Shown in pieces: positions 2,111 through 31,541 of a stretch of 34,385 nucleotides of DNA (position 1 is its first letter; every line of letters begins with the position of its first letter). Position numbers and translations under genes: made by a program. The stretch is from Martelella radicis (GTDB taxonomy: Bacteria > Pseudomonadota > Alphaproteobacteria > Rhizobiales > Rhizobiaceae), in the NCBI RefSeq assembly GCF_014196625.1, contig NZ_JACIDZ010000026.1, forward strand, positions 1-34,385. Reading direction: 5' to 3'. A model generated the notes under the pieces. The model did no database searches, was not told the DNA's origin, and worked only from the letters and a program-made list of their open reading frames with translations.

Positions 2111-2950
2111 TCAAAGCTCGACATCCAGTGTATCACGCAGGGCATCGCCGAGAACGTTGATCCCCCAGACCGCGCTGAAGATCGCAAGCCCGGGAAAAAT
2201 GACGCACCAGGGCGCGTAGGTCATGTCCTCGATGCCCTGGGTGATCATCTGCCCCCATGAAACCGCCGTCGGGTCGCCCAGCCCGAGAAAGCTCAAGCCC
2301 GCTTCGGCGACAATCGCCGAGCCGACATCAAGCGTTGCCACGATCAACAGCGGCCCGACACCGTTCGGCAGGATGTGGCGCCATATGATGCGGCCGTGAC
2401 CGGCGCCGGCCATGCGGGCGGCATCGACAAAGTCGCGGGTCTTGATGTCCATCACCTTGCTGCGCGCTACGCGCCCGATCGAGGGCCACATGGTCACCCC
2501 GATGATGAGCGCGATGACCTCGAGGCTGCGCGCACCGATGACCGTAGCCGCGACAATCAGCAGCACCACGTCGGGCACGGAAAGCTGGATATCGGCAAGC
2601 CGCATGAAGACCGGGCTGAGCGTGCGCTGAAAATAGCCGGCCAGCGAGCCGAATGTCACGCCGATCAGAAGCGAGATCGCCGTTGCCAGCACGCCGACAT
2701 AAAGCGATGTCCGCGCGCCCCAGATGATGCGGCTCAGCATGTCGCGGCCAAGCGAATCCGTGCCGAAAGGAAAGGCAAGCGACGGCGGGCGAAACACATC
2801 GGAAAACATCATCTCCGTTGGGTCATAAGGGGCGATAAACGGCGCGAATGTGCCCGCGATCACCAAAAGCGCCGTCAGCGTCAGCCCGACGATGGAAAGC
2901 CGGTTGTGCAGCAGTCGTGACCAGAAACCGCGCCTCTTGCGTTCAGCCAT
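2111..2950 (-). CDS. Peptide/nickel-type ABC transporter permease, DppC-like
   Basis: Inner-membrane permease of a family 5 (dipeptide/oligopeptide/nickel) ABC importer, 279 residues. It has the DppC/OppC N-terminal layout: a first membrane helix (about residues 18-40), an extracellular segment ending FGTDSLGRDMLSRIIWGARTSL, then the conserved transporter core. The EAA-loop region reads DFVDAARMAGAGHGRIIWRHILPN, and LSFLGLGDPTAVSWGQM is the usual C-terminal signature. It is the last gene of a minus-strand operon, 19 bp after the DppB-like permease, with GGAAGGA upstream of the start. The substrate is unknown; the operon's odd binding protein and S41-like peptidase favour a peptide or peptide-like compound. 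Confidence 0.9.
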   Translation of the reverse strand: MAERKRRGFWSRLLHNRLSIVGLTLTALLVIAGTFAPFIAPYDPTEMMFSDVFRPPSLAFPFGTDSLGRDMLSRIIWGARTSLYVGVLATAISLLIGVTFGSLAGYFQRTLSPVFMRLADIQLSVPDVVLLIVAATVIGARSLEVIALIIGVTMWPSIGRVARSKVMDIKTRDFVDAARMAGAGHGRIIWRHILPNGVGPLLIVATLDVGSAIVAEAGLSFLGLGDPTAVSWGQMITQGIEDMTYAPWCVIFPGLAIFSAVWGINVLGDALRDTLDVEL

Positions 2951-2969
2951 GTGTCAGCGTCCTTCCTGG

Positions 2970-3947
2970 CTATTCATATCGGATACGCGGGTTGAGCCAG
3001 CTGTAGCAAATGTCCGTCAGCAGATTGGCGATGATCACCAGCACCGAGACCAGAAGCGTGATCGCCATGACCACCGGATAGTCGCGGACATGGACGGCAT
3101 GGACCAGATAGCGGCCAACACCAGGCCAGGAGAAGATCGTCTCCGTCATCACCGCGCCGGAAAACACATGCCCCATGGAAAGCCCGATCAGCGTGACGAC
3201 GGACATCAACGAATTGCGCAGCGCATGCTTGATCAACACGACCCTGCGTTTCAGCCCCTTCGCGCGCGCCGTCACGATGTAATCCTTGTGCAGCACTTCC
3301 AGAAGCTCGGCCCGCGTCACCCGCATGGTCACGGCCATACTTCTCAGCGTCACCGTGAGCGCCGGCAGAACGAGGTGCCACAGCCGGTCGAAGATCATGC
3401 CGAAGAAGGACCCGGTGGCGACGGTGGAACTCACCGATCCGCCGGAGGGAAAAAGGCCCAGCTCCACCGAAAACACCAGGATCAGCATCGCGCCAATCCA
3501 GAAGGCGGGCATGGAGAGCCCGAAGAGCGCGAAGGACCGGCCGAAATGGTCGATCCAGGAATTCGGTCGGATGGCCGACAGCACGCCGATCGCAATGGCG
3601 AGCGGCCAACCGATCAGATGTCCGAAGAAAAACAGCGACAGCGTTGCGCGCATGCGCGGCGCAAGTTCGGCGGTGATTGCGCGATGGGTCTCATAGGACG
3701 TGCCGAGATCGCCGACCAGAACGCGCGAAAGCCATTTCCAGTACTGAACATAGATTGGCTTGTTGAGGCCGAGTTCCTCTTCAACTTGCGCCATGCGGGC
3801 GGCATCCACCGTCGCTTCCGGATTGGCAGCTGTGTAGAAATCGACGATATTGCCGGGGGCGGCCTGCATCAACGCGAAGACGAGAATGGTGATGCCGAAG
3901 AAGGTCGGAATGGCGCCGAGCAACCGGCGAATGATGTAGCCGGTCAT
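2970..3947 (-). CDS. Peptide/nickel-type ABC transporter permease, DppB-like
   Basis: Partner permease of the DppC-like protein, 325 residues. It starts MTGYIIRRLLGAIPTFFGITILVFALMQ in the style of DppB (first membrane helix at residues 9-30) and carries LGLNKPIYVQYWKWLSRVLVGDLG, which precedes the membrane core in this family. The EAA-like segment is DYIVTARAKGLKRRVVLIKHALRN. TETIFSWPGVGRYLVHAV and the end WLNPRIRYE are family hallmarks. Its start overlaps the stop of the upstream ATPase gene by 4 bp (ATGA), implying translational coupling. Confidence 0.92.
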   Translation of the reverse strand: MTGYIIRRLLGAIPTFFGITILVFALMQAAPGNIVDFYTAANPEATVDAARMAQVEEELGLNKPIYVQYWKWLSRVLVGDLGTSYETHRAITAELAPRMRATLSLFFFGHLIGWPLAIAIGVLSAIRPNSWIDHFGRSFALFGLSMPAFWIGAMLILVFSVELGLFPSGGSVSSTVATGSFFGMIFDRLWHLVLPALTVTLRSMAVTMRVTRAELLEVLHKDYIVTARAKGLKRRVVLIKHALRNSLMSVVTLIGLSMGHVFSGAVMTETIFSWPGVGRYLVHAVHVRDYPVVMAITLLVSVLVIIANLLTDICYSWLNPRIRYE

Positions 3948-4981
3948 GCGACGTCTCCCTTCAGCCCTTGCAGATCGAGCGCCTCTGCATGGTGGCAGGC
4001 GACCTTTCGCCCCTCTCCCACGCCGGCAAGCGGCGGCCGCTCGGCCTTGCAGAGATCGGTGGCGTAGCGGCAGCGCGGATGGAAGGCGCAGCCCGATGGC
4101 GGCGATATCGGATTGGGTATCTCGCCTTCCAGAACGATGCGCTTGCGGCGAAGACGCGGATCCGGCGAGGGCGTTACCGAGATCAGCGCCTCGGAGTAGG
4201 GATGCTTCGGCGCGGCGAAGAGGCGGCTTGTCTCCGACACCTCCACGATTCTCCCGAGATACATGACCGCGATCCGGTCGCTGATATGACGCACCACCGA
4301 AAGATCATGGCTGATGAACAGCAGCGTCAGCGCCTTTTCGCGGCTGAGATCGGTCAGCAGGTTCAGCACCTGGGCCTGAACGGATGTATCAAGCGCGGAA
4401 ACAGGTTCATCGGCAATCACAAGCTGCGGGTTGATCGCCAGCGCGCGGGCGATGCCGATGCGCTGACGCTGGCCGCCGGAAAATTCGTGCGGATAATTGT
4501 CGAGTTGATCGGCGCGCAGGCCAACCTGTTCGATCTGCATCCGGACCAGTTCGGCAAGCGCCTTGCCGCTGGCAATGCCGTTGACGCGCAGCGGTTCGGC
4601 AATGATCTGCTCTGTCGTCATGCGCGGATTGAGCGAGGCATAGGGGTCCTGGAAGATGAGCTGGATCTTGCGGCGCAGGGCCTTGACGCCGGAGGCCGGA
4701 AGCCGGGCGATATCGACCGCCGCCCCGTTTCCGTCTGCAAACAGGATCTCGCCCGCGCTCGCTGTATCGAGGCTTGCGACCAGGCGGCCGAGCGTCGACT
4801 TGCCGCTGCCGCTTTCGCCGACGAGGCTGAGCGTCTCGCCGCGACGGATGTCCAGATCGACGCCGTCGACCGCACGCACGACGGCGACATGGCGCTGCAG
4901 CAAGCCGCGCCGCACGGGAAAAAACTTCTTCACGCCGCGCAGCTCGAGAATGTTTTCCGGCGAGGAGAGCGAGGGGGTCAT
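3944..4981 (-). CDS. Peptide-type ABC transporter ATPase, DppF/OppF-like
   Basis: Cytoplasmic ATPase, 345 residues, powering the importer with the neighbouring DppD-like ATPase. Walker A is GESGSGKST, the ABC signature FSGGQRQRIGIARAL, Walker B LVIADEPVSALD, followed by LFISHDLSVVRHISDRIAVMY. The C-terminal oligopeptide-transporter domain is present, with CAFHPRCRYATDLC cysteines that in related proteins can hold an iron-sulfur cluster. The start VKKFFPVRRGLLQRHVAVVRAV is typical of OppF/DppF. It overlaps the DppD-like gene upstream and the DppB-like gene downstream by 4 bp each. Confidence 0.93.
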   Translation of the reverse strand: MTPSLSSPENILELRGVKKFFPVRRGLLQRHVAVVRAVDGVDLDIRRGETLSLVGESGSGKSTLGRLVASLDTASAGEILFADGNGAAVDIARLPASGVKALRRKIQLIFQDPYASLNPRMTTEQIIAEPLRVNGIASGKALAELVRMQIEQVGLRADQLDNYPHEFSGGQRQRIGIARALAINPQLVIADEPVSALDTSVQAQVLNLLTDLSREKALTLLFISHDLSVVRHISDRIAVMYLGRIVEVSETSRLFAAPKHPYSEALISVTPSPDPRLRRKRIVLEGEIPNPISPPSGCAFHPRCRYATDLCKAERPPLAGVGEGRKVACHHAEALDLQGLKGDVA

Positions 4982-6009
4982 GGCGCCGTCTCCGTTTCAT
5001 GCGATCCGCTCATCTTGCCGGGCGAAAAGTCGGAATGAATCCAGCAGGCCGCCGCATGACTTGGCGAGAGCGTGTGGCTGGGCGGCTCCTGCTCGCGGCA
5101 AAGGAGACGCGCATGCGGACAGCGGCTGGCAAAGCGACAGCCGGAAGGAAGGTCATAGGCGCTGGGAACGGAGCCCTCGATCGGCTGGAGCCGTTCATTG
5201 GCGCCCGTCAGGGAGGGAAGAGCGGCCAGCAGACCCTTGGTATAGGGATGACCGGGCGACAGCAGCACATCGTTGACCGAACCGCGCTCGACGACCTTGC
5301 CGAGATACATCACCAGCACATCATCGGCGATTTCCGCCACCACGCCCAGATCATGGGTGATGAACAGCACCGCCATGCGGTTTTCTTCCCTGAGCCGCAT
5401 GATCAGGTCGAGAACCTGCGCCTGGATCGTGACATCAAGTGCGGTGGTCGGCTCGTCGGCGATCAGAATGTTGGGACGACAGGAAAGCGCCATGGCGATC
5501 ATCACCCGCTGGCGCATACCGCCGGAAAACTGATGCGGATACTGGTTGACCCGCTCTTCCGGAGCGGGAATACCGACCTCGCGCAGCGCCTCGATAGCGC
5601 CTTGCCAGGCAATCTTTCGCCCGCATTTCTGGTGCAGCATGATCGCCTCGCTGATCTGGTCGCCGACCGCATAGGCCGGGTTCAGCGAGGTCATCGGCTC
5701 CTGGAAGATCATGGCGATCTCGTTGCCGCGGATGGCGCGCATCCGGTCGCCGTTTTCATCCAGCTTCGCGATATCGACAGCGCCCGCAGCGCTTTCAAAC
5801 AGGATCTCGCCGCCGGCAATGCGACCGGGCGGGGAAGGAACAAGCCGCATGATCGAGCGGGTGGTGATCGATTTTCCGCAGCCGCTCTCGCCGACAATGC
5901 AGACGATCCGGTTTTCCTCGACCGAAAACGACACGCCATCAACGGCGCGCGCCACACCAGCGGCGCTTGAGAATTCGATCTGCAGGTTTCTGACATCAAG
6001 AAGAGGCAT
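4978..6009 (-). CDS. Peptide-type ABC transporter ATPase, DppD/OppD-like
   Basis: Second ATPase of the importer, about 343 residues. The open frame extends upstream, but ATG at 6009 ([13 protein letters not shown]) is the natural start: it matches the family N-terminus and sits in a 14-bp overlap with the end of the S41-like gene. Walker A is GESGCGKS, signature [15 protein letters not shown], Walker [13 protein letters not shown], then [22 protein letters not shown]. The C-terminal [14 protein letters not shown] cysteines are typical of this subfamily. Confidence 0.93.
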
Positions 6010-7615
6010 CGGCCTGCCCTTCATCGGTGGCTGGGTCCGCGCCGGCACTCGCCAGATGCGCAATGGCACGCTCGAGCAGCAGCTCCGGATAATGGGGAAA
6101 ATTGTCGCGGGTCTGAGGGATATAGTCGTCCACTGCCGGCGGGTTTCCATCGAGAAGCTCGCCATTGGGCCGGATTGTGTGCCCCATGGAATACATCAGA
6201 CCGACAGCGGGTCTACCCGAGAGCGGGAAGGCAACGTCTTCCACCCATTCCCAGGTATTGCTGTAACCTGCCGTCGGCATGCCGAGCGTGAAGCCAACGC
6301 CGTTATCCTTGACCATGGCGGCGAACTGGTCGAGATGCGAGCCCCCATAGGGCCCGAACATCGCCACCAGTCTCCCGGTAAAATGATCGGGGTGCGGATC
6401 AATGAAGCCGTCCGATGTCTTCGGCAGATGGGTGAGCTTGAAGGGAACGTCGTTGGAATAGGCATCCCCACGGGCCAGACCATCGCGGACATCGGTGACG
6501 AGCCAGTCCCACAGCCACGACCCGCCATCCATCCACACGCCGGCATCAACCTCCTTCAGCGAGGCCCCCTCCTCGCGACCGCGCCGGATGAGGTCGATGA
6601 AGGGCTCGACCGCATCGCTCAGCCTGAGATTGCCGAACGTGGTCTTGAAGGGTTTTGACGTTAGCGCCTGCAGAACATACGCGCCATACCCGCCGCCGCG
6701 CGATCGGGTGCCATCGAAGATCACGTGATGGTCGAGAACGCCGGCCTTCTTCGCCCAGGTGATCAGCGCATCCGTATCGGCAATGACATGATCCTCGCTG
6801 AAACGCTTCCAGTCGAGCAGGACGATCGGCAGATCATCAGAGCGATAGAGCTCGAAGCAGGGGCGCGAGAACTGGTGAGAAAAACCCGGATAGCGGTTTT
6901 CGCCAGGCTTGCGGAAGCTGCCGGACCAGGAAATCGTGTCGGCGGCGCGCCAGTCGAGGGCAAGATCGTAGGTATCGCCCGCGCCGCCTTGGAGCGTGAA
7001 CTGCGCCTCAGGCAAATAAAGCTCTGGCGAAACTTCACGGGAACGCTGAGAAAGCGCCTTGGCCAGCGTCCACCACATGCCCTCGCGCGTCGACCAGCGC
7101 AGATATGGCAAGTGACATGCGCACCAGTCGGAAACCGACAAGCCGTTGACGGCGATGAGGCGGTCACCGAGTGCCGGTCTCCGGCCACCGAAATCGGCCG
7201 GGTTGGTTCCAGCATCGGCGACAAAGAAAAAAGGCCTGTTCGGGTCGCCGTAATCCACGGAAAAGCGGATCGGCACGTCTTCCGTCGGCAACCGGTCCAT
7301 GCGGATATCGTTCTCGCCGAGCCTGACCCCCGGCAGCTCAAGGCCGCCGCGCAGGAGCCAGACCTTGACGTGTACATCGCGGCGGGCATTGTTCATCCGC
7401 AGGATCGCATAGATCAGCTTTTCATCGGTATCGGCGGTGATGAAATCCTGGCGACAGGCTTGAAGCGCGGCGGCGACATCAAGCCCCAGACGCTCGTTCT
7501 TGACCGGAACAAGGGCATCCCGACGCATGATCTTTGCGAACATGTCTTCAAAAAGCGCGACCCGGTCTTCTCTCGAATGAGAAGGTCCGTGGTCAGTCGA
7601 CTGGGAAGGTTGCAT
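5996..7615 (-). CDS. S41-like peptidase family protein, cytoplasmic
   Basis: 539 residues with a C-terminal-processing-protease (S41) fold. A PDZ-like stretch reads PALGDRLIAVNGLSVSDW (about 147-164). FDGTRSRGGGYG (about 300-311) fits the S41 glycine-rich strand-turn motif. GPYGGSHLDQFAAMVKDNG (about 421-439) carries Ser426 where the S41 nucleophile is expected, followed by FTLGMPTAGYSN. There is no signal peptide or membrane segment, so it should be cytoplasmic. It sits between the binding protein and the ATPases of a peptide-type importer, suggesting it processes the imported compound. The start is uncertain because no clear ribosome-binding site precedes ATG 7615. A non-peptidase role on this fold is possible. 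Confidence 0.7.
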   Translation of the reverse strand: MQPSQSTDHGPSHSREDRVALFEDMFAKIMRRDALVPVKNERLGLDVAAALQACRQDFITADTDEKLIYAILRMNNARRDVHVKVWLLRGGLELPGVRLGENDIRMDRLPTEDVPIRFSVDYGDPNRPFFFVADAGTNPADFGGRRPALGDRLIAVNGLSVSDWCACHLPYLRWSTREGMWWTLAKALSQRSREVSPELYLPEAQFTLQGGAGDTYDLALDWRAADTISWSGSFRKPGENRYPGFSHQFSRPCFELYRSDDLPIVLLDWKRFSEDHVIADTDALITWAKKAGVLDHHVIFDGTRSRGGGYGAYVLQALTSKPFKTTFGNLRLSDAVEPFIDLIRRGREEGASLKEVDAGVWMDGGSWLWDWLVTDVRDGLARGDAYSNDVPFKLTHLPKTSDGFIDPHPDHFTGRLVAMFGPYGGSHLDQFAAMVKDNGVGFTLGMPTAGYSNTWEWVEDVAFPLSGRPAVGLMYSMGHTIRPNGELLDGNPPAVDDYIPQTRDNFPHYPELLLERAIAHLASAGADPATDEGQADASS

Positions 7616-7695: not shown

Positions 7696-9399
7696 TTATT
7701 GCGGGCCGTCAATGCTGATCGTATCATAATCGAAGCCGGCCTCGACGAGCGCTTTCTTGGCTTCGTTGAGATCGTAGACGAGCGGCGGCAGATCCGGCGA
7801 ATAGGCCGGGTTCCAGTCCGGTACCATCTGGTCGGCCGGACGGGCGAGCCCGTCGAACACCACGTCAGCGATCACCTGCCGGTTCGTGGCGAGACTCATG
7901 GCCTTGCGCACGCCTAGCTTCGACAATTCGGGATGATCGTGATTGATGCGGACGATCTCCATCGAGATATCCGGCTGCTCGATCGTGCCGATTTCAGGGT
8001 TGGCGTTGATCTCTTCCAGCTCACGGGTAAAACCGTAGGCATTGGTGATATCGACCTCGCCTGCCTTCATCGCATAAAACGCCGCCGTCTTGGTCGGCAC
8101 CACCTTGAAGGTGACGTAGTCGAAGAACGGACGGCCGCCATAGTATTCGTCATTCGCCTTCCAACGGATGAATTCGCCTGGCTGGTAGACATCAAGCACG
8201 AAGGGTCCGGTGCCGATAACCGTCGTCGTATTGTATTCAGAGGTCTTGATCTCGGCCGGCGGCATATCGCCAAGTACATGCTCCGCGACGATCGGAGTCG
8301 TGAACATTTCGGAGGCAAACAGCGGACTGAAGGTTTCTGCCGTAAACTCAACCGTCTTGTCATCCAACTTCTTCCAGCTCACCCCATTCGTCTCGATGAA
8401 CTTGGACGAACCGTAGCCGGCGTCGGGGTTCTTGATCAGATCATAGGTGAACATAACGTCATCGGCGGTGAGGGGAACGCCGTCGTGCCAGGTGGCACCA
8501 TCGGCCAGATGGAAGGTCCAGGTCTTGCCGTCCTCGGAGATTTCCCAGTCAGTGGCAAGCGCCGGCTTCGGCCCCTTCTTGCCGCCATCCCTTGTGGCAT
8601 AGGAACCTAGTGTGGGCGCCAGAAGCGCGTCATAGGCCATGTAGTTGAGCGCCCGCGTGGTATCGTCATTGTCGTGGAAACCCGGCAGGAACGCCTCAAG
8701 GCCGGAACCGTCAGTGGCGACAACCAGCGTCTTTTCACGCGGCGTCATCTCGTCGGCGGACTTGCCCTCGACTTCACGCGTTGCCCAGCGTGCGGCATAG
8801 CTTTCCCAACCATAATAGCTCTTGTTTTCGGGAAAGGCGATATCGGTGCGCACAAGGTTGATCTTGGGCGTGCGGTATATCGGCACATTGGCGAAATCTT
8901 CCCTGAGAAGCGCGACCGCTTCCTTCGTCGTTTCCCAGCGCGCCTCGTCATTGGGCGTGGCAAGCGCCTCGTAGATCAGTTCGTCGAATTCGGGATTGAC
9001 GTAACGCGTGCGGTTATTCCCGTTGGGATAGAACTGGTCGCTGCCATAGCGCACATAGATGCCCGAAGGATCAGGGAAGGTGTTGAGCGACGTGCCGCTG
9101 AAATAGATGTCGTAGCCGCCATCCTCGAAGGTCACGCCGGTCTTGGAAGTCAGCTTGTAGCGTGGGCTGATCGCTGCAAAATCAATGAACTGAAGATCGA
9201 CATCAATGCCGATCTTGCCGAAATCCTGCGCCATGATCTGGGCGATCTTGGCAAGTTCGCTATTGCCCTCGCCCACCATCAAGGTGAGCGTGAAAAAACT
9301 ATCATCCTCGGCTATGGCCGGAGCGGAAAGACCGCTCGCCAGAAGCGCCGATGCGCACAGCAACCTGGCCCGTGCGCTCCATTTTCCGTATGATTGCAT
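7696..9399 (-). CDS. Circularly permuted family 5 ABC substrate-binding protein
   Basis: Periplasmic binding protein of the importer encoded downstream, 567 residues, with a Sec signal peptide (residues 1-30, ending SAPAIA). The order of its parts is rearranged. Residues 35-209 (FTLTLMVGEGNSELAKIAQ to SYYGWESYAARWATRE) are what normally ends a DppA/SBP_bac_5 protein, including YVNPEFDELIYEAL and NVPIYRTPKI. Residues 223-567 then start like the mature N-terminus of the family (KTLVVATDG), continue through WTFHLADGATWHDGVPLTAD and IGTGPFVL, and stop after YDLNEAKKALVEAGF, the point where the family's C-terminal segment normally begins. A linker (about 210-222, EGKSADEMTPREK) joins the old ends. 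One uninterrupted frame and a proper promoter argue for a functional gene. Confidence 0.88.
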   Translation of the reverse strand: MQSYGKWSARARLLCASALLASGLSAPAIAEDDSFFTLTLMVGEGNSELAKIAQIMAQDFGKIGIDVDLQFIDFAAISPRYKLTSKTGVTFEDGGYDIYFSGTSLNTFPDPSGIYVRYGSDQFYPNGNNRTRYVNPEFDELIYEALATPNDEARWETTKEAVALLREDFANVPIYRTPKINLVRTDIAFPENKSYYGWESYAARWATREVEGKSADEMTPREKTLVVATDGSGLEAFLPGFHDNDDTTRALNYMAYDALLAPTLGSYATRDGGKKGPKPALATDWEISEDGKTWTFHLADGATWHDGVPLTADDVMFTYDLIKNPDAGYGSSKFIETNGVSWKKLDDKTVEFTAETFSPLFASEMFTTPIVAEHVLGDMPPAEIKTSEYNTTTVIGTGPFVLDVYQPGEFIRWKANDEYYGGRPFFDYVTFKVVPTKTAAFYAMKAGEVDITNAYGFTRELEEINANPEIGTIEQPDISMEIVRINHDHPELSKLGVRKAMSLATNRQVIADVVFDGLARPADQMVPDWNPAYSPDLPPLVYDLNEAKKALVEAGFDYDTISIDGPQ

Positions 9400-9699: not shown

Positions 9700-10383
9700 A
9701 TGCCTGAATTTGAATTTGAGCGTGATCGAGCCTACAGGCTGCTGCTGGATTTCTTTCTGGGCGGTGATTTCGACACCGATACCAGCCTTTCGGAGCGCAA
9801 GCTGGCCGAAACCCTGCACATGGGGCGCATGCCGATACGCGAGGCCCTGCGCGACCTGTCGCGTGACGGCTTGCTGGAATCAAGGCCCGGCCGCGGCACC
9901 TTCCTGCGCCCCCTCTCGGTCGATGATCTGCGCGAAATCTACGAGGTACGGTATGCGCTTGAGGGCATGGCAGCCCATCTCGCAGCCCAGAATGGACTGA
10001 CCGAAGAGCTCGCCGCCTATGATGCGAAGTTCAAGGCGATGCTCGCAAGTCCGGACGATTACGAACTCGGCGCCGTTTACGACCTCGGCGCCGAATTCCA
10101 TCTCAGCATGTTCCGGGCCGCGAAAAACCAGCATCTCTATGACATCTACGAACCTTTGCGACTGCGTTTCCGCATCGCACTCGGCCTGCCGAAGCATTAC
10201 GATCATGCGCGCGTCTTCAAATCCGTCGAAGAGCACATCGAAATTCTGGACGCAATCAGAGCCGGTGACAGCCTCAGGGCCCAGCAGCTTGTTTGCCGCC
10301 ATCTTGCGGCCGGCCTGGATGTCCGTACGCGGATCTTCGAGAAATTAAAGGACTATGCTGGTCCGGCGGCGGCAAGCGCATGA
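9700..10383 (+). CDS. GntR-family regulator, FCD (FadR) type
   Basis: DNA-binding regulator, 227 residues. The N-terminal winged helix-turn-helix covers about residues 10-70 (SERKLAETLHMGRMPIREALRDLSRDGLLESRPGRGTF split over the recognition helix and wing). The C-terminal FCD domain (about 75-215) shows DLREIYEVRYALEGMAA, and histidines in FHLSMFRAA and VEEHIEILDAI fit metal or ligand binding. A longer frame is open from 9508, but ATG 9700 is preferred: GGAG lies 5 bp upstream and the protein then has normal family length. Its stop overlaps the aminotransferase start (ATGA). Likely controls the divergent importer operon and itself through the two GGTATACC sites. Confidence 0.9.
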   Translation: MPEFEFERDRAYRLLLDFFLGGDFDTDTSLSERKLAETLHMGRMPIREALRDLSRDGLLESRPGRGTFLRPLSVDDLREIYEVRYALEGMAAHLAAQNGLTEELAAYDAKFKAMLASPDDYELGAVYDLGAEFHLSMFRAAKNQHLYDIYEPLRLRFRIALGLPKHYDHARVFKSVEEHIEILDAIRAGDSLRAQQLVCRHLAAGLDVRTRIFEKLKDYAGPAAASA

Positions 10384-22683: not shown

Positions 22684-24339
22684 TCAGGCTCCTTCGGGCA
22701 CGGATGAAGCCGGCAGGTGCTCTTCGAGCAGTTCCAGCGTATCTTCCAGCCAGCCGATCCGCATTTCCGGCACGGAGCGCATCAAAAGCTCGGTGTAGTC
22801 GTCAAACGGCGGGGACAGGACCTCCTGCTTGCCGCCATAGCGCACCACTTCGCCCTGATACATGACCGCAATCGTGTCGGCGACTTCGCGCACAGCGGCG
22901 ATATCGTGGGTGATGAAGATGTAGGTGACGCCGTCTTTCCGCTGAAGATCGCGCAGCAACTTCAGGATGCCCTTGGCGACCAGCGGATCGAGCGCGCTCG
23001 TCACCTCGTCGCAGATGATCAGCTTCGGCTTGGCGGCCAACGCGCGGGCAATGCAGACGCGCTGCTTCTGCCCGCCGGAAAGCTCGGCCGGGTAGCGGTC
23101 GATGAACTCCTCGCCGAGTTCGATGCGATCGAGCAGTTCAATGACGCGCTGGCGCTTTTCCTTGCCCTTCATGCCGAAATAGAATTCAAGCGGCCGGCCG
23201 ATGATCGTGCCGACGGTCTGGCGCGGGTTCATCGCCACGTCAGCCATCTGATAGATCATCTGCAGTTCCTGCAGGTTCTGCCAGCTGCGACCCTTCAGCG
23301 CCGGAGACAGGACTTCGCCGTCAAACTCGATCTCGCCGGTATGGGGCGGCAGAAGCCCTGTCAGCACGCGGGCAAGCGTCGACTTGCCCGAACCGCTCTC
23401 GCCGACGATTGCCAAGGTTGTGCCCGGCTGGACCTCCATGTTGATGTTCTTCAGCACATCGAAATCGAGCCCGCGATAGCGCGCCGAGATCTCCTTCAGC
23501 GTCAGCACCGGCTTTTCGTCCGGATCGCGCTCGCGCCGTTCGACGTTGATGGCCGAGACGAGATCCTGGGTATACTCTTCCTGCGGATGGTTGATGATCT
23601 GGTCGCAGGTGCCGTATTCCACCGTCTCGCCACCGCGCAGCACCATGATGTCATCGGCAATCTGGGCGACGACGGCGAGATCATGGGTGATGTAGAGCGC
23701 AGCCACGCCGAAATCGCGGATCGCCTTCTTGATCGCCGCCAGAACGCCGAGCTGGGTGGTCACGTCCAGCGCCGTCGTCGGCTCATCAAAGACAACAAGA
23801 TCCGGCTTCGGGCAAAGCGCCATCGCCGTCATGGCGCGCTGCAGCTGGCCGCCGGAGACCTGGTGCGGATAGCGGTTGCCGAAAGTCTCCGGGTCAGGCA
23901 GGCCAAGGCGGGTGAAGAGGTCGACGGCGCGTGCCTTTGCCTCAGACCGGCTCATCCGCTTGTGCTTGACGGTCGATTCGATGACCTGATCCATCAGCTT
24001 GCGCGCCGGATTGAAGGCGGCGGCGGCGGATTGCGCCACATAGGTCACCTCGGCTCCCCGGGCGGAGCGCAGCACCTTGCCGGGCGCGCGGCGCATTTCC
24101 CGACCATTGAGCTTGATCGAGCCGCCCGTCAGCCTGACGCCGCCACGGCCATAGCCCATCGCGGAAAGGCCGATGGTGGATTTACCGGCACCCGATTCCC
24201 CGATCAACCCCAACACCTTGCCCGCTTCGAGCGACAGCGAGACGCCGTTGACGATGGTGATCTTCTGCGGCTTTTCGCCAGGCGGGTAGCTGGTTGCCTC
24301 GATCTTGAGGTCCTTGATTTCAAGAAGAGCCTCAGCCAT
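22684..24339 (-). CDS. Fused dual ABC ATPase, DppD-DppF type
   Basis: 551 residues with two complete ATPase domains in one chain, where most Dpp/Opp systems use two proteins. N-half: [52 protein letters not shown]-half: GESGSGKST, LSGGQKQRVCIARAL, LIICDEVTSALD, FITHDIAAVREVADT. Both halves look catalytically complete. It overlaps the upstream permease gene by 8 bp and serves the carnitine-operon importer. Confidence 0.93.
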   Translation of the reverse strand: MAEALLEIKDLKIEATSYPPGEKPQKITIVNGVSLSLEAGKVLGLIGESGAGKSTIGLSAMGYGRGGVRLTGGSIKLNGREMRRAPGKVLRSARGAEVTYVAQSAAAAFNPARKLMDQVIESTVKHKRMSRSEAKARAVDLFTRLGLPDPETFGNRYPHQVSGGQLQRAMTAMALCPKPDLVVFDEPTTALDVTTQLGVLAAIKKAIRDFGVAALYITHDLAVVAQIADDIMVLRGGETVEYGTCDQIINHPQEEYTQDLVSAINVERRERDPDEKPVLTLKEISARYRGLDFDVLKNINMEVQPGTTLAIVGESGSGKSTLARVLTGLLPPHTGEIEFDGEVLSPALKGRSWQNLQELQMIYQMADVAMNPRQTVGTIIGRPLEFYFGMKGKEKRQRVIELLDRIELGEEFIDRYPAELSGGQKQRVCIARALAAKPKLIICDEVTSALDPLVAKGILKLLRDLQRKDGVTYIFITHDIAAVREVADTIAVMYQGEVVRYGGKQEVLSPPFDDYTELLMRSVPEMRIGWLEDTLELLEEHLPASSVPEGA

Positions 24340-25153
24340 TGCGGCCTCCTTTCAGCGATGTCGTGCGTTCCAGAATCCAGTCGGCGACCAGATTGACGGA
24401 GATGGCGAGCGCTGCGATGGCGACAGCCGGAAGCAGGGCTGCTGGAATGCCATAGACGATGCCATCCTTGTTTTCCTTCACGATACCGCCCCAGTCGGCA
24501 TTCGGCGGCTGGATGCCGAGCCCGAGGAAGGACAGCGTCGAGATGAACAGAACGACGAAGATGAAACGCATGCCGAGTTCGGCAATCAGCGGCGAAATCG
24601 CATTCGGCAGGATTTCCCGGAAGATCACCCAGATCTGGCCTTCACCGCGAAGGTTTGCAGCCTCGACGAAGTCCATGACCGCGAGATCGGCGGCAACGGC
24701 GCGCGACAGGCGGAACATCCGCGTTGCCTCCAGAAGGCCGATGACGACGATCAGGATAGGCACCGTCACCGGCATAACCGACAGCACGACCAGCGCAAAG
24801 ATCAGCGATGGAATGGCCATGATGAGGTCGACGAAGCGCGACAGAACCTGATCGAGCCAACCGCCGACAGTCGCAGCAAAAAGCCCGAGCGTGGTACCGA
24901 CGATAAAGGCGACCATGGTTGCCGCGATTGCCACGAAAATCGTGGTGCGGCCGCCATAGATCAGGCGCGACAGCAGATCGCGGCCGATATTGTCGGTGCC
25001 AAGCCAGTGCGCGGCGGATGCCGGCTCCCAGACATCGCCGACAACCTGGCTCATGCCATAGGGCGCAAGCCACGGCGCGAAGATGGCCGCGAGGAAGAAG
25101 CAGATGGTGACAAACAGGCCGACAAGGGCGGGATAAGGTATTCGTTTTATCAT
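24332..25153 (-). CDS. Peptide/nickel-type ABC transporter permease, DppC-like
   Basis: 273 residues from ATG 25153 (MIKRIPYPALVGLFVTICFFLAAIFAPWLAPYG); the longer frame upstream is not coding. HWLGTDNIGRDLLSRLIYGGRTTIF is the DppC signature, DFVEAANLRGEGQIWVIFREILPN the EAA loop, and LSFLGLGIQPPNADWGGIV the C-terminal motif. It lies 10 bp after the DppB-like gene and overlaps the ATPase start by 8 bp. Confidence 0.92.
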   Translation of the reverse strand: MIKRIPYPALVGLFVTICFFLAAIFAPWLAPYGMSQVVGDVWEPASAAHWLGTDNIGRDLLSRLIYGGRTTIFVAIAATMVAFIVGTTLGLFAATVGGWLDQVLSRFVDLIMAIPSLIFALVVLSVMPVTVPILIVVIGLLEATRMFRLSRAVAADLAVMDFVEAANLRGEGQIWVIFREILPNAISPLIAELGMRFIFVVLFISTLSFLGLGIQPPNADWGGIVKENKDGIVYGIPAALLPAVAIAALAISVNLVADWILERTTSLKGGRNG

Positions 25154-25163
25154 GTTCTTCTCC

Positions 25164-26123
25164 TCATCGCGGATGCCGCAGACGCGGATTGGCGAGGATT
25201 GAGAAGATATCCGCCAGCATATTGAGGGAGATGTAGACGCCGGCAAAGATGATGCCGCAGGCCTGGACCACCGGCACATCGCGCTTGGCCACATGATCGA
25301 CCAGATATTGGCCCATGCCCGGATAGACGAAGACCACTTCGACCACCACGACGCCGACGACCAGATAGGCCATGTTCAGCATCACCACGTTGACGATCGG
25401 CGCAATGGCGTTCGGAAACGCATGACGCCAGATCACCTTGAAGCGGGACAACCCGTTCAGTTCGGCGGTTTCGATATAGGCCGACTGCATGACGTTCAAA
25501 AGCGCTGCACGCGTCATGCGCATCATATGCGCCAGCACGACCATCACCAGAACGGTGACCGGCAGCGCAATGGCATGCAGCTTGGCGAAGAACGACATGT
25601 TCGCACTGATCATCGCGACCGATGGCGCCCAACCGAGCTGCACGCCGATATAGAAGATCAGGATGTAGCTCAGCATGAATTCCGGCACGGAGATCGATGC
25701 AAGCGTAATGGTCGAGATCAGCTTGTCCGGCCAGCGGTTGCGGTAGAGCACAGAAACGAGGCCGAGAATGATGGCAAGCGGCACCGAGATGATGGCAGCA
25801 CACCCCGCCAGAAACAGCGTGTTCGACAGCCGGCCCTCGATGGCGGTGGCGATGTTCTGGCCGTTGGTCAAAGACGTGCCGAGATCGCCATGCAACAGAC
25901 CGACAAGCCACGACAGGTAGCGCTGATAGACCGGCGCGTTCAGACCGAGTTCGGCGCGCAGGTTTGCCAACGCTTCAGGTGTGGCGGATTGGCCGAGAAT
26001 GGCCTGGGCGACATCGCCGGGCAGCATCTGGGTGCCGGCGAAAATCAGGATCGATACGAAAAAGATCAGCATGAGGCCCAGCGCCAAGCGCTGGACCACA
26101 AGCTTGAGAAGGGAGGCGTTCAT
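25164..26123 (-). CDS. Peptide/nickel-type ABC transporter permease, DppB-like
   Basis: 319 residues. It starts MNASLLKLVVQRLALGLMLIFFVSILIFAGTQMLPGD with the first membrane helix, then LGLNAPVYQRYLSWLVGLLHGDLGTSLTNG, typical of DppB. The EAA loop is AYIETAELNGLSRFKVIWRHAFPN. VVEVVFVYPGMGQYLVDHV and ILANPRLRHPR close the protein in family style. It lies 7 bp after the binding-protein gene. Confidence 0.92.
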   Translation of the reverse strand: MNASLLKLVVQRLALGLMLIFFVSILIFAGTQMLPGDVAQAILGQSATPEALANLRAELGLNAPVYQRYLSWLVGLLHGDLGTSLTNGQNIATAIEGRLSNTLFLAGCAAIISVPLAIILGLVSVLYRNRWPDKLISTITLASISVPEFMLSYILIFYIGVQLGWAPSVAMISANMSFFAKLHAIALPVTVLVMVVLAHMMRMTRAALLNVMQSAYIETAELNGLSRFKVIWRHAFPNAIAPIVNVVMLNMAYLVVGVVVVEVVFVYPGMGQYLVDHVAKRDVPVVQACGIIFAGVYISLNMLADIFSILANPRLRHPR

Positions 26124-26130
26124 GGGCGCC

Positions 26131-27717
26131 TCATGCCTTCCAGCATTTTACGGGAGCAAGACCGTTCATCAGCTCGAAGACGCCGTTTTCTTCCCAGCCC
26201 TGAACATCGGTGCTGACAGCCTGAACGAACTCGTTGAACATCGGGCAGATGAGACCGCCTTCGTCGCGCAGGATCTTCGCCATCTGGCTGTACTGGTCCT
26301 TGCGCTTGGCCTGATCCAGTTCACCCTTGGCCTCCAGAAGAAGTTCGTCGAACTCCTCATTGTAGAAGTGGGTGTCATTCCAGTCGGCGCTGGAAAGATA
26401 GGCGGTGGTGTACATCTGGTCCTGAACCGGGCGGCCATCCCAGTAGGAGGCGCAGAACGGCGTGTTGTTCCAGACATCCGACCAGTAGCCATCATCGGGC
26501 TCGCGCTGGATCTCAAGCGGAATGCCCGCTGCCTGCGCGCTCTGCTGGAAAAGCTGCGCGGCATCGACCGCGCCCGGGAAGGCGGTTTCGGCAACACGCA
26601 GGATAATCGGGCTGCCGTCATGACCGGAAGCCTTGTAGAGCTCGGCGGCCTTTTCCGGATCGTAGGTGCGCTGCTCGATGCTGTCGTCAAACAGCGGATA
26701 GCTTTCGTTGATCGGGAAGTCGTTGCCGACCGAACCATAGCCACGCAGGATCTTTTCGACCATTTCCTCACGGTTGATCGCGTATTTCAGGGCGTTGCGC
26801 AGCTCCTTGTTGTCGAAGGGCGGCTGGTCGCACTGCATGATGAAGACGTAATGGCCACGACCGGCAACATGGTCGACGGTGATGTTCGGCGCACGGTCAA
26901 GCAGACCGGCAACGCGTGGCGCGACCTGGTTGACAATATCGACCTGACCGGACTGAAGCGCGGCATTGCGCGCCGTCGCATCATTGATGATGGTCATTTC
27001 GATCGTGTCGAAGTGACCACGGCTGTCGTCCCAGTAGTCGGCAAACTTTTCGAAGGTGTAACGAACGCCGGGTTCCGCCTCGACAATCTTGTAGGCGCCG
27101 GTACCGATACCGGCCGTCGGGTCTTCGCGACCACCGCCCGGCTGGATCGCCAGATGGAAGTCGGAGAGGAGATAAGGAAGGTCGGCCGTCGGCACATCGA
27201 CTTCGACGATCAGGTTTTCGCCATCGACGCGGATATCGGAAATGCCGCGCATGATGCCGAGCGCGCCGGACTTGGAATCCTCATCCGAATGGCGCAGCAG
27301 CGTCTGGCGTACATCTTCCGGCGTCATCGTCTCGCCGTTGTGGAACTTGACGCCCTGGCGGATCTTGAAGGTCCAGGTCTTGGCATCGTCGGAGGCTTCG
27401 AAGGATTCCGCCAGACGCGGGTTCAGCGAACCATCGGCATTCACTTCGAGAAGCTGTTCGCCGTAAGCGCGAACGACGTGAAACGGCACCTGGCTGGCAA
27501 TCAGCGCCGGGTCGAGCGAGGTGGTGGACGAGCCGCCGCCAAGGCCCATGCGCAACGTGCCGCCCTTGACCGGCTCCTGCGCCATGGCCATGCGGCCGAA
27601 CATCGAATTGGCGGCTACAGCGCCGACGCCGAGCGCCGAGGTGCGGGCGATGAATGCGCGACGCGACATGCCGCTCTTCAACATGCTGGCTGTGAGAGAT
27701 TTCCGAAATTTTTTCAT
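26131..27717 (-). CDS. Tat-exported family 5 substrate-binding protein of carnitine operon
   Basis: 528 residues from ATG 27717 (MKKFRKSLTAS), with GGAAG 5 bp upstream; the frame open further upstream overlaps non-coding sequence. A twin-arginine signal, SRRAFIARTSALGVGAVAA, precedes GGTLRMGLGGG. The order is the ordinary one for SBP_bac_5: TWTFKIRQGVKFHNGETMTPED, then GTGAYKIVEAEPGVRYTFEKF, NREEMVEKIL, YDPEKAAELYKASG, then the C-terminal segment with ALGELDQAKR-like helices and CWKA at the end. It is the in-window control for the permuted binding protein at 7696-9399. The ligand is presumably carnitine or a relative, inferred from the operon only. Confidence 0.9.
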   Translation of the reverse strand: MKKFRKSLTASMLKSGMSRRAFIARTSALGVGAVAANSMFGRMAMAQEPVKGGTLRMGLGGGSSTTSLDPALIASQVPFHVVRAYGEQLLEVNADGSLNPRLAESFEASDDAKTWTFKIRQGVKFHNGETMTPEDVRQTLLRHSDEDSKSGALGIMRGISDIRVDGENLIVEVDVPTADLPYLLSDFHLAIQPGGGREDPTAGIGTGAYKIVEAEPGVRYTFEKFADYWDDSRGHFDTIEMTIINDATARNAALQSGQVDIVNQVAPRVAGLLDRAPNITVDHVAGRGHYVFIMQCDQPPFDNKELRNALKYAINREEMVEKILRGYGSVGNDFPINESYPLFDDSIEQRTYDPEKAAELYKASGHDGSPIILRVAETAFPGAVDAAQLFQQSAQAAGIPLEIQREPDDGYWSDVWNNTPFCASYWDGRPVQDQMYTTAYLSSADWNDTHFYNEEFDELLLEAKGELDQAKRKDQYSQMAKILRDEGGLICPMFNEFVQAVSTDVQGWEENGVFELMNGLAPVKCWKA

Positions 27718-27824
27718 TTTTGCTTCCGTCTTGGTTTGGGTTTGTCCGCAAACGAGGCGGCTCGCATGCCTCTCAGATGGGGCGGAATAAAAGTGTTGGA
27801 ACGAGCCCGTATGAAACTTGGCAG

Positions 27825-29270
27825 CTAACGCGTGCCGGGGCGCTCGCCGACAAAGCGGCCGGCGCCATCGGCATCGAAACCGGAATGTATGCGCTCGAAT
27901 TCCGCCAGCTTTTCGGCGACCTCGCCTTCCGGAACGCATGAGCGCCGGGCATTGAGATCCGTGTGCAGCAGCAGCGTCTCGACGGTGGCCGCCAATTCGC
28001 CGTCGCCGCGGAAAAGCCGGTGAAAGAGGTGCATCTTCTTGCCCTGGCCGGAGAGCAGCTGCGACGTCGCCGTCAGCCTGTCGCCCTCGTGAACCTCATT
28101 GAGATAGCGCACATGGCTTTCGACGGTGAAATAGCTGAGGCCGCTGGCGATATAGGAGGCATCCGCGCCGATCAGTTCCATGAAGCCATCGGTCGCCTTG
28201 GAGCCGGCCTCCAGATAGAAGGTCTCGTTCATGTGGCCGTTATAGTCGGTCCATGATGGCGGCACCTGGCGGCTAAGCGTCACGGGAAGGCCATCGCGCG
28301 CTCCGCTGACAACAAGATCGGCCTCATGCGCCGACAAAACCTTGCCGGCGGCATTGTCGCTGACCTTCAGCGCCCGCAGGATGCCAACAAGGTTGTCGTC
28401 GCGCTCCCGCTCCAGCGACCGGATCGACTTTTCACCCGACTGGTCGTCCGACTGACCGGCGATCAGCTCGACAAGCTCGTCGTTGAATTCCGGCACGTCC
28501 ATGAGCTTCGTCCACGGCCATGACAGCGCCGGGCCGAACTGCGCCATGAAATGCTTCATGCCCGCCTCGCCTCCGGCAATGCGGTAGGTCTCGAACAGGC
28601 CCATCTGGGCAAAGCGTAGGCCGAAGCCCATGCGGATCGCCTCGTCGATATCCTCTGTAGTGGCAACGCCGTCCTTCACCAGCCAAAGGCTTTCACGCCA
28701 GATCGCTTCGAGAAGTCGGTCGGCGATATGGGCGTCGATTTCCTTTTTCACCGTCAGCGGATACATGCCGATGGAGCGGAGGATCCCGGCGGCCTTTTCG
28801 CAGGTCGCCTTGTCGCCGACGAGCTCGACCAGCGGCAGAAGATAGACCGGATTGAACGGATGAGCGACGATGGCGCGGGCGCCCTTTTCATCCAGCTCCG
28901 ACGGTTTGAAACCCGATGTCGATGAACCGATGATCGCCCCCTGCCCTGCCGCCGCAGAAATGGCGGCATGGGTTTCATGCTTCAGCGCCAGCCGCTCCGG
29001 CACGCTTTCCTGCACCCAGATAGCACCGGCAACGGCCTCTTGCAGCGTGGCGCAGAAGGTCAGCGTCCCCTCGGCAGGCAACGGCTTGTCGTAGAGCGCC
29101 GGCAGCGAGCGACGGGCATTGGTTATGACTTCGCCGATCTTGCGCTCGGCTTCCGGATCAGGATCGAACACCGCAACGTCAAAACCGTTCAGCAGGAAGC
29201 GCGCGGCCCAGCCGCCGCCAATCACGCCGCCGCCGACAATCGCAGCCTTCGATAGGCCATCCCCGCTCAT
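27825..29270 (-). CDS. lcdH: L-carnitine dehydrogenase fused to betainyl-CoA thioesterase
   Basis: 481 residues, two domains. Residues 1 to about 320 form a 3-hydroxyacyl-CoA-dehydrogenase-type enzyme with AAIVGGGVIGGGWAARF (NAD site), GSSTSGFKPSEL, and HPFNPVYLLPLVELV with the catalytic His; this class oxidises L-carnitine to 3-dehydrocarnitine. Residues from about 335 form a hot-dog thioesterase with PPSWTDYNGHMNETFYL, whose DYNGHM motif is typical, and which in this fusion is taken to hydrolyse betainyl-CoA. The start overlaps the BKACE stop by 4 bp. Neighbouring cleavage enzyme and CdhR-like regulator support the carnitine assignment. Confidence 0.85.
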   Translation of the reverse strand: MSGDGLSKAAIVGGGVIGGGWAARFLLNGFDVAVFDPDPEAERKIGEVITNARRSLPALYDKPLPAEGTLTFCATLQEAVAGAIWVQESVPERLALKHETHAAISAAAGQGAIIGSSTSGFKPSELDEKGARAIVAHPFNPVYLLPLVELVGDKATCEKAAGILRSIGMYPLTVKKEIDAHIADRLLEAIWRESLWLVKDGVATTEDIDEAIRMGFGLRFAQMGLFETYRIAGGEAGMKHFMAQFGPALSWPWTKLMDVPEFNDELVELIAGQSDDQSGEKSIRSLERERDDNLVGILRALKVSDNAAGKVLSAHEADLVVSGARDGLPVTLSRQVPPSWTDYNGHMNETFYLEAGSKATDGFMELIGADASYIASGLSYFTVESHVRYLNEVHEGDRLTATSQLLSGQGKKMHLFHRLFRGDGELAATVETLLLHTDLNARRSCVPEGEVAEKLAEFERIHSGFDADGAGRFVGERPGTR

Positions 29271-30190
29271 CGCGCAGCACCCTTCGGCGCGCGTTTCACG
29301 AGACCGAGCTTCTCACGCACGGCTTCCGGGCCAATGACGCGGGCGCCCATAGTCTCGGCAACCGTCACGGCCTTTTCGACAAGCTGGGCATTGGTGGCGA
29401 GCACGCCCTTCGACAGATAGATATTGTCTTCCAGACCGACGCGGATATTGCCGCCGGCAAGCATGGCCGCCGCCGCATAGGGCATCTGGTCACGGCCGAG
29501 CGAGAAGGCCGACCAGTGCCAGTCTTCCGGCACATTGTTGACCATGGCCATGAAGGTGTTGAGGTCGTTCGGCGCGCCCCACGGAACGCCCATGCACAGC
29601 TGCACCAGCGCCGGCGAGGTCAGGATGCCTTCCTTGACCAACTGCTTGGCAAACCAGAGATGGCCGGTATCAAACGCCTCGATCTCGGGCTTCACGCCGA
29701 GATCGGTCATCATCTGGCCCATGGCGCGCAGCATGCCGGGCGTATTGGTCATCACGTAGTCGGCTTCGGCGAAATTCATCGTGCCGCAATCGAGCGTGCA
29801 GAGTTCCGGCAAGCATTCGGCGATGTGGACGACACGTTCGGCAGCGCCGATCATGTCGGTTCCGGCCTCGTTGACCGGCAGCGGCTTTTCCGTCGACCCG
29901 AAGATGATGTCGCCGCCCATGCCGGCCGTCAGGTTCAGCACCACATCAACCTCCGCATCGCGGATGCGGTCGGTCACTTCGCGATAGAGCGTCGGAAGAC
30001 GTGAAGGAACACCGGTTTCGGGATCGCGGACATGACAGTGGACGATGGCAGCGCCCGCCTTGGCGGCATCGATGGCGCTCCTTGCAATCGCTTCAGCCGA
30101 ACGGGGAACATGGGGAGAGCGGTCCTGGGTGCTGCCCGAACCGGTGACAGCGCATGTGATGAAAACATCCCTGTTCATTGTCAGAGGCAT
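29267..30190 (-). CDS. BKACE-family enzyme, likely dehydrocarnitine-cleaving
   Basis: 307 residues of the beta-keto acid cleavage family (DUF849). With acetyl-CoA, the carnitine-linked members split 3-dehydrocarnitine into acetoacetate and betainyl-CoA. Marks: VFITCAVTGSGSTQDRSPHVP, GAAIVHCHVRDPETG with the zinc-binding HCH, NLTAGMGGD, and VGLEDNIYLSKGVLATNAQ. AGGAG lies 5 bp before ATG 30190. It is first in an eight-gene operon and adjoins carnitine dehydrogenase, which fixes the likely substrate. Confidence 0.85.
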   Translation of the reverse strand: MPLTMNRDVFITCAVTGSGSTQDRSPHVPRSAEAIARSAIDAAKAGAAIVHCHVRDPETGVPSRLPTLYREVTDRIRDAEVDVVLNLTAGMGGDIIFGSTEKPLPVNEAGTDMIGAAERVVHIAECLPELCTLDCGTMNFAEADYVMTNTPGMLRAMGQMMTDLGVKPEIEAFDTGHLWFAKQLVKEGILTSPALVQLCMGVPWGAPNDLNTFMAMVNNVPEDWHWSAFSLGRDQMPYAAAAMLAGGNIRVGLEDNIYLSKGVLATNAQLVEKAVTVAETMGARVIGPEAVREKLGLVKRAPKGAAR

Positions 30191-30614: not shown

Positions 30615-31541
30615 ATGAACGTCACATTCCTGCTCCTTGACGGCTTTTCGAACCTGGTTTTCTCCTGTCTTCTCGAACCGCTTCGCATGGTTCACGATCT
30701 CTATCGGGAAGATATCAATTGGCGGGTCATCAGCGCCGATGACGGGATGGTGGAGAGCTCGTCGCACCTGCTGCTTGTTCCCACGGCAAAGCGCGAAGAC
30801 ATCGAGGCTTCCGATCTTCTCGTTATCATTTCCAGCAACGGCTACCGCCAGCATCCGACGCCGGAAAACCAGCGCCTCGTCATGGCGCTCGCCCGACAGA
30901 GCCGTTATGTCATCGGCGCGGATGCCGGCGCATGGATGCTCGCCTCGACCGGCCTCCTCGACGACCTGACGGCAACGCTGCACTGGTCGGTGATCAGCGA
31001 ATTTGCGGAGACCTTTCCGGACGTTCACGTCAGCCAGGCAAGCTACGTCAAGGAAGGGCGGCTGTGGAGCTGCGGCGGCGCCTCGACGGCGCTGGAACTC
31101 ATTCTCGCCTTCATCACCGAGGAGTTCGGCGCGGCCAGAGCGTTCATGGTCTCATCCATGTTCATGCATGATGCAAGCCCGCAGCGCGACGGCGCGCGCA
31201 TGCCGACGGCGCTTTCCGTGCCAGGTCGCAGCAAGATGGACGCCATCATCAACATCATGGTGGAAACGATCGAAAATCCGCTTTCGCTCAGCGCGCTTGC
31301 CGAACGCGCCCACATGTCGACCCGCACCCTCAACCGGCTGTTCAAGGCCGAGCTCGGCATGTCGCCGGGGCAGTATTACCAGAACATCAGGCTGACCCAC
31401 GCCCGCGAAATGGCGGAAAACACGGCTCTGGGCCTACGCGAAATCGCGATCCGCTCCGGCTATTCGAATGCCCCCGCCCTCAGCAAGGCCTTTCGCAAGG
31501 CCTATGGTCACTCGCTGCGCAAGATCGAAAAGAAGCCGTGA
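30615..31541 (+). CDS. cdhR: GlxA-type AraC-family activator, CdhR-like
   Basis: 308 residues. The N-terminal DJ-1/PfpI-like domain covers about 1-170 (MNVTFLLLDGFSNLVFSCLLEPL, then VIGADAGAWMLASTGLLD and LWSCGGASTALELILAFI). The C-terminal AraC DNA-binding domain (about 208-305) has two helix-turn-helices: LSALAERAHMSTRTLNRLFKAELG and LGLREIAIRSGYSNAPALSKAFRKAYG. This architecture is that of CdhR and GbdR, activators of carnitine and glycine betaine catabolism in Pseudomonas. Divergence from the carnitine operon supports a CdhR role. There is no clear Shine-Dalgarno before ATG 30615. Its end is 7 bp from the convergent hydrolase gene. Confidence 0.82.
   Translation: MNVTFLLLDGFSNLVFSCLLEPLRMVHDLYREDINWRVISADDGMVESSSHLLLVPTAKREDIEASDLLVIISSNGYRQHPTPENQRLVMALARQSRYVIGADAGAWMLASTGLLDDLTATLHWSVISEFAETFPDVHVSQASYVKEGRLWSCGGASTALELILAFITEEFGAARAFMVSSMFMHDASPQRDGARMPTALSVPGRSKMDAIINIMVETIENPLSLSALAERAHMSTRTLNRLFKAELGMSPGQYYQNIRLTHAREMAENTALGLREIAIRSGYSNAPALSKAFRKAYGHSLRKIEKKP

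Follow-up and report, generated by a model that had tools for sequence, protein, structure and literature searches.

Evidence for a naturally circularly permuted family 5 substrate-binding protein in a Dpp/Opp-type ABC importer operon of Martelella radicis

A substrate-binding protein gene of Martelella radicis encodes a protein in which the canonical segments of family 5 (SBP_bac_5) follow one another in swapped order. The gene lies at positions 7696 to 9399 on the minus strand of the window, by which we mean the whole stretch of 34,385 nucleotides analysed here, and its product, P0001, has 567 amino acids. Profile alignment, phmmer, Pfam and a rotation scan support circular permutation as the right reading of this protein and, as its segment order is swapped, it should be regarded as a permuted variant of the SBP_bac_5 family, not as an ordinary member. 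Very probably, P0001 is the exported binding protein of a complete Dpp/Opp-type ABC importer and belongs to an ancient permuted branch of family 5 with one, possibly two, origins.

P0001 was compared with a family 5 profile (model length 522) derived from 28 proteins of canonical order. Behind a putative signal peptide, judged by eye from the sequence (residues 1-31; 9307-9399, minus strand), residues 33-188 (8836-9303, minus strand) match model positions 359-503, the canonical C-terminal part, with 61.3 bits. Residues 221-561 (7717-8739, minus strand) match model positions 34-362, the canonical N-terminal and middle part, with 294.3 bits. Profile and rotation scan place between them a linker of residues 189-220 (8740-8835, minus strand), by which the former C-terminus is connected to the former N-terminus. 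Together, the two segments span the model from position 34 to 503 in swapped order, and only the extreme ends of the family are missing. A phmmer search of the PDB gave the same picture for the AppA chain 1xoc_A, where chain residues 52-345 correspond to P0001 264-557 and chain residues 355-467 to P0001 31-156. PF00496 likewise matches P0001 in two stretches, with 283.6 bits in all against a cut-off of 32.4. Pfam and the sequence of a solved structure thus both yield two stretches in swapped order. An earlier note on this DNA had taken residues 35-209 for a family 5 C-terminal part, and residues 33-188 do match that part of the profile. The same note had the protein stop after NEAKKALVEAGF; this segment is indeed found there, but 11 further residues, DYDTISIDGPQ, follow it.

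For the rotation scan, the mature chain was rotated in silico in 5-residue steps, and the score of a single alignment against the family 5 profile was recorded. The native order of P0001 scored 295.9 bits, while the five best rotations, at residues 197-217 within the linker, reached 363.5-363.8 bits. Joining the end of the protein to its front segment, as had been proposed, therefore restores the canonical order as one continuous alignment of 363.8 bits. Rotation raised the scores of two related proteins introduced below, L031 and L032, from 278.6 to 356.0 bits and from 238.6 to 321.9 bits, respectively, and three canonical controls peaked at their native ends or a few residues away. A chance match as the source of the swapped order was ruled out with 20 scrambled versions of the N-terminal part for each of 49 permuted proteins: a match to the C-terminal segment occurred in only 4 of 980 constructs, the best with 1.3 bits, compared with 22.5 to 93.0 bits for the real segments of these proteins.

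The window holds a complete Dpp/Opp-type importer gene set on the minus strand at 2111-6165. It comprises genes for an OppC/DppC-type permease (2111-2950), an OppB/DppB-type permease (2970-3947), a DppF-type ABC ATPase (3944-4981) and a DppD-type ABC ATPase (4978-6165), the last of these taken from the first ATG, so that its real start may lie further in. The second gene of the operon (5996-7615, minus strand) encodes a protein of 539 amino acids, which fits no NCBIfam family and stays below the cut-off of every Pfam family; its one match, a sub-threshold one, is to the N-terminal domain of S41 peptidases (E 0.031). A GntR/FCD regulator gene is oriented divergently (9700-10383, plus strand). 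The window also contains a second transporter operon (22684-30190, minus strand), which holds a canonical binding protein; the usual segment order that had been claimed for the binding protein at 26131 was borne out by Pfam for the ORF 26131-27939. This operon is preceded by genes for a fusion of 3-hydroxyacyl-CoA dehydrogenase with thioesterase and for a beta-keto acid cleavage enzyme, and an AraC/DJ-1 type regulator gene at 30615-31541 goes with it. Together, the operon and its neighbours are suggestive of carnitine use.

Short peptide patterns of P0001 were searched against the contigs of one genome per species, covering 84,980 species, and found one relative, L031, in a genome of Ca. Bipolaricaulota. 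L031 matches residues 11-566 of P0001 in the same swapped order, with 48% identity in the best segment, and the subtype of P0001 itself was seen only in the window and at L031. Downstream of the permuted gene, the L031 locus carries OppB and OppC genes, and a GntR-like gene (assigned by eye) adjoins it upstream; further neighbours encode aspartoacylase-like, S9 and Memo-like proteins. The OppB and OppC permeases of the window are 57% and 61% identical to their L031 counterparts, compared with at most 36% and 38% for the other matches listed, from 17 loci, which suggests that binding protein and permeases share a history. The genome of the window itself bears a second permuted gene, L032, on another contig (G000:C1) with an M28 peptidase gene nearby. 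L032 and a further permuted protein, L038, share 24-25% identity with P0001.

The earlier note had suggested a homologue search for the same order, and this search did find a lineage. From 130 locus sequences, 12 repeats were removed before classification. Among 122 family 5 ORFs, 49 were permuted (48 distinct, since L094 and L121 are the same protein), 72 were canonical and one, the truncated L081, stayed undecided; as the loci were chosen by similarity, the ratio of 49 to 122 says nothing about frequency in nature. The canonical comparators were picked partly by their similarity to permuted queries, and near-copies are left among loci and permeases, so that the counts given here are not of independent cases. 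Two candidates dropped out: L119 (G724) is cut by a contig end and yields no classified ORF, and L084 proved to be canonical although its match spanned query positions 36-517. The permuted ORFs come from Alphaproteobacteria, haloarchaeal plasmids and Bipolaricaulota. In all 49 permuted proteins the first segment starts between model positions 354 and 376 (median 361). The second segment ends between 356 and 371 in 47 of the 49; in two haloarchaeal proteins, where the alignment stops early, it ends at 330 and 332. The break is hence common to the permuted proteins, near model positions 357-361, and the linker between the segments measures 4-97 residues, with a median of 25.

Plasmids and genome samples were searched with permuted queries. 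In the plasmid searches we counted records with one place matching over at least 80% of the query, which were 27 of 3667 for P0001, 50 of 575 for L032, 25 of 60 for L040 and 2 of 2 for L039; since some such matches are joined pieces of canonical genes, these counts are rough upper limits at that coverage. One of them, the Aeromonas match H4, looked permuted from joined pieces and proved canonical when checked. Genome samples were queried with A1, an alignment of nine permuted proteins, all nine of which are matched by PF00496. As 4, 7 or up to 14 candidates were scored per genome, the following numbers are lower limits: in the family of the window, 15 of 199 genomes matched at E 1e-75 or better, its own included, and all 18 places outside its own genome were classed as permuted; in its class, 11 of 289 genomes matched, again with its own, nine of the others being permuted and one cut by a contig end; in the phylum sample, 23 of 299 matched at E 1e-60, with full-length permuted matches in its own genome only; and in the phylum of L031, 4 of 100 matched at E 1e-70, with the permuted order in two cases, L031 and L089. 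Among five genomes of the same genus, G007 and G010 carry the L032 type, and G008, G009 and G012 gave no permuted match at E 1e-60. In viral contigs, A1 retrieved eight loci, seven with canonical ORFs and one being the undecided L081, and no loci were found there with L032 and P0001 as queries.

Complete plasmids that bear permuted ORFs include pNMAG02 of Natrialba magadii, pOM-1 of Nitratireductor, and the plasmids numbered 2 of Halalkalicoccus jeotgali and Ketogulonicigenium vulgare. The named haloarchaeal sources are Haloprofundus, Natronorubrum, Halalkalicoccus, Haladaptatus, Natrialba, Halobaculum and Halostagnicola; those in Alphaproteobacteria include Roseomonas, Neorhizobium, Nitratireductor, Maritalea, Salipiger and Ketogulonicigenium. 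The permuted order is not peculiar to the locus in the window; it marks old lineages that have transporter operons of their own.

One origin of the permutation is slightly favoured by the shared break, although two would be quite possible. The two-origin reading, which differs from our preferred one only in the number of origins and which we hold to be a little short of probable, says that the permutation arose at least twice, once in a group of P0001, L031, L039 and L124 (perhaps with L089) and once in a large alphaproteobacterial and haloarchaeal group, perhaps because the fold is most readily opened at this loop. It was assessed in trees from which the columns around the break and the signal region were excluded. 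A quick tree of 70 rows, in which rows were dropped at more than 80% (permuted) or more than 55% (canonical) identity to a kept row (37 permuted rows lie below 80% identity), needs three changes between permuted and canonical order. For a careful tree of 59 rows, 11 rows (four permuted, seven canonical) were removed, namely ten that were long-branched in the quick tree and L129, which is joined to one of these ten. Two further rows flagged as long-branched, L091 and L009, were retained. The careful tree needs two changes, with the canonical L091 inside the permuted group, and one permuted clade appears in 0% of 200 bootstrap trees. In both trees, well-supported branches force at least two changes, which speaks for two origins. 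In a tree of 57 OppB permeases, 33 of 37 partners of permuted proteins fall into one clade (100/99), which suggests that the permuted proteins travel with permease lineages. The pairs of window and L031 and of L039 and L124 stay outside this main clade, three changes are needed, and one clade for all occurs in 0% of the bootstrap trees.

Against two origins, approximately unbiased (AU) tests do not reject a single permuted clade for the quick tree (p-AU 0.239), the careful tree (0.138) and the permeases (0.283), and the break sits at about the same place in 49 of 49 proteins. Moreover, in the one tree from which L091 was left out, the permuted rows formed a single clade with support values of 96/91, present in 96% of 200 bootstrap trees. 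L091 (347-1942, minus strand) is canonical, long-branched and derived from a genome of the phylum of L031. It may be placed there as the closest canonical relative, through a return to the canonical order or as an artefact of its long branch. Taken together, the trees split the permuted rows in two while the constraint tests do not reject one origin, which leads us to one or two ancient origins.

The genes around the permuted ORFs bear on the role and the cargo of the proteins. With wider flanks examined, an OppB gene lies within 7.5 kb on the same strand of 37 of 40 permuted ORFs, that is, in the window and for 36 of the 39 others. The three exceptions, with no permease in the stretch seen, are all haloarchaeal (L037 2040-3890, L037 4833-6629 and L128 4746-6653), and each of them is followed by a PAP2-family phosphatase gene. 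Import may thus not be the role of every member. For P0001 itself, it is very unlikely that the protein has ceased to be a transporter component and acts as a ligand sensor or scavenger beside hydrolases: the two L037 members and L128 would fit such a role, but the near-regular presence of OppB and the two permeases and two ATPases of the window's own operon argue against it. Of 39 loci with permuted genes, 17, among them L032 (8547-10274), have an M28 peptidase gene close by, compared with none of 20 loci around canonical genes, in counts that rest on a profile built from permuted loci, on stretches of differing length and partly on near-copies; none was detected in the window or at L031. Other neighbours of permuted genes encode members of the hydantoinase/oxoprolinase, gamma-glutamylcyclotransferase and creatininase families as well as D-aminoacylases and dipeptide epimerases. 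The hydrolase neighbours in related loci suggest that the cargo may be small peptides or modified amino acids. Such cargo-hinting genes are found mostly in the other permuted loci, and the window has only the weak S41-like match.

Permuted and canonical proteins differ in composition at two alignment columns. At model column 423, Arg is present in 34 of 49 permuted proteins compared with 5 of 72 canonical ones. At column 422, Asp is found in 3 of 49 permuted and 30 of 72 canonical proteins, and Glu in 21 of the 49 permuted ones. Columns 422 and 423 are Thr and Phe in P0001 and Ala and Thr in L031, so both are without the signature of the larger group. In AliD, according to passages of PMC11192437, Asp501 is the acidic residue that holds the amino terminus of the peptide. 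Column 422 was taken as its equivalent from the profile alignment; if it is the amino-terminus anchor, P0001 may bind a ligand whose amino end is blocked. A wider proposal, which we put forward as a doubtful one, is that the permuted proteins would constitute a separate, ancient class of ABC importers common to alphaproteobacteria, haloarchaea and Bipolaricaulota, tethered by lobe 2, docking on a permease lineage of their own in a different geometry, and importing small peptides and amino-acid derivatives that are blocked or unusual, by means of a changed anchor for the amino terminus. Within such a class P0001 and L031, which lack Arg at column 423, would represent yet another specificity.

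How the permuted order arose may be pictured as the fusion of a tandem copy followed by trimming, by which the old C- and N-termini would have become joined by a linker of about 25 residues. Such a course of duplication and trimming is plausible. A long match in G098 was not counted as permuted because it contains a stop and spans two neighbouring canonical ORFs; at this locus (L042), two canonical binding-protein ORFs stand directly in tandem (991-2583 and 2632-4233, minus strand), and the permuted-profile match runs between both, across the stop codon. This is a gene arrangement whose fusion and trimming could give the permuted order.

The break follows a helix that ends in an AKxxLxEAG-like motif, and by alignment its DppA equivalent is at about chain residue 342. 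We take domain III of DppA to extend from about 261 to 478; the cut would then lie inside domain III, between the helix and the next strand, and a cut within the third domain suggests the same fold with its termini on the other lobe. In the sections of PMC11192437 on AliD, domain I comprises residues 29-63, 191-296 and 583-617, domain II residues 64-190 and domain III residues 297-582; lobe 2 is domain III, a continuous insert, and both native ends are in domain I, in lobe 1. With the old ends in domain I and the cut in domain III, the chain of P0001 should run from lobe 2 to lobe 1 and back: it would begin in lobe 2, pass into lobe 1, which would now be continuous, and end in lobe 2 again. 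The cleft and both hinge crossings would be preserved, and with them closure on the ligand and hand-over to OppB/OppC, so that only the chain ends, along with any membrane anchor, would shift from lobe 1 to lobe 2. We infer that the fold of P0001 would be unchanged and that its new ends would be exposed at the surface. An AlphaFold2 model computed from an alignment of two sequences (P0001 and L031) had a mean pLDDT of 34.6 and was unusable. In the relative L040, the twin-arginine signal model of NCBIfam passes its cut-off.

A most unlikely alternative is that P0001 works only as an entwined dimer, in which lobe 2 of one chain completes lobe 1 of another. Passages of PMC11192437 describe a natural domain-swapped dimer with exchanged lobes for the canonical AliC, which would be a precedent; that every permuted chain has the canonical segments once and that its linker is mostly short argue weakly against it. 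The preferred reading of P0001 as a two-lobed protein permuted within its own chain is also preferred to an artefact of assembly or recombination that swapped the halves of an ordinary gene in this genome, a virtually negligible prospect that could draw on the shortness of the contig and on the lack of a close relative of P0001 among 40 related genomes (the best match was 38% identical over part of the protein), but which we reject given the one unbroken reading frame from a putative signal peptide to a stop codon, the 48% identical protein of the same order in another phylum, and the recurrence of this order in L032 on another contig of the same genome, in other genomes and on complete plasmids. 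The assembly rearrangement that the earlier note had allowed for is thus contradicted, and the same swap in distant bacteria and haloarchaea makes the rearrangement look old and working, not a sequencing error.

Among the binding proteins of transporters, family 5 is very large, and within it the swapped order persists in bacteria and archaea alike, in most cases together with permeases of its own. The permuted proteins can serve as a test, set up by nature, of what in a binding protein determines docking and attachment to the membrane, and as an example in which to study the origin of circular permutation in a large protein of two lobes. They also matter for annotation: profiles of one order break permuted proteins into partial matches, and the annotated permuted proteins that we encountered were labelled simply as substrate-binding proteins. 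The earlier note knew of no described natural permutant of family 5; in agreement with it, our search of open-access full texts, a body that leaves most subscription papers outside, found no description of one. In the available parts of PMC2588589, SBP_bac_5 stands in a table and circular permutations appear only in the title of a reference. With six permuted proteins, all NCBIfam binding-protein models stayed below their cut-offs, and the DppA equivalog NF043070 scored 129.9 bits on P0001 against a cut-off of 1005. No permuted chain was seen among the best 60 of 115 and the best 60 of 114 PDB matches.

Compared with known systems, P0001 resembles family 5 (SBP_bac_5, PF00496; DppA, OppA, AppA, NikA) in its canonical segments, model positions 34-503, in its putative signal peptide as judged by eye, in its operon with OppB, OppC and two ATPases, and in a PF00496 score far above the cut-off. 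It differs in that the segment order is permuted and the termini fall within the canonical domain III. AppA (1xoc) and DppA (1dpp) are among the best PDB sequence matches over the long segment, and those two have the canonical order. The permuted relatives are L031 and the group linked to M28 peptidases (L032, L038, L121, L127, L150-L157 and others), which share with P0001 the permuted order, about the same break and the same operon partners; the M28-linked group is set apart by its peptidase genes. Finally, engineered circular permutants of binding proteins are in use as biosensors. In these laboratory constructs the chain ends of a two-lobed binding protein have likewise been moved, whereas P0001 is natural.
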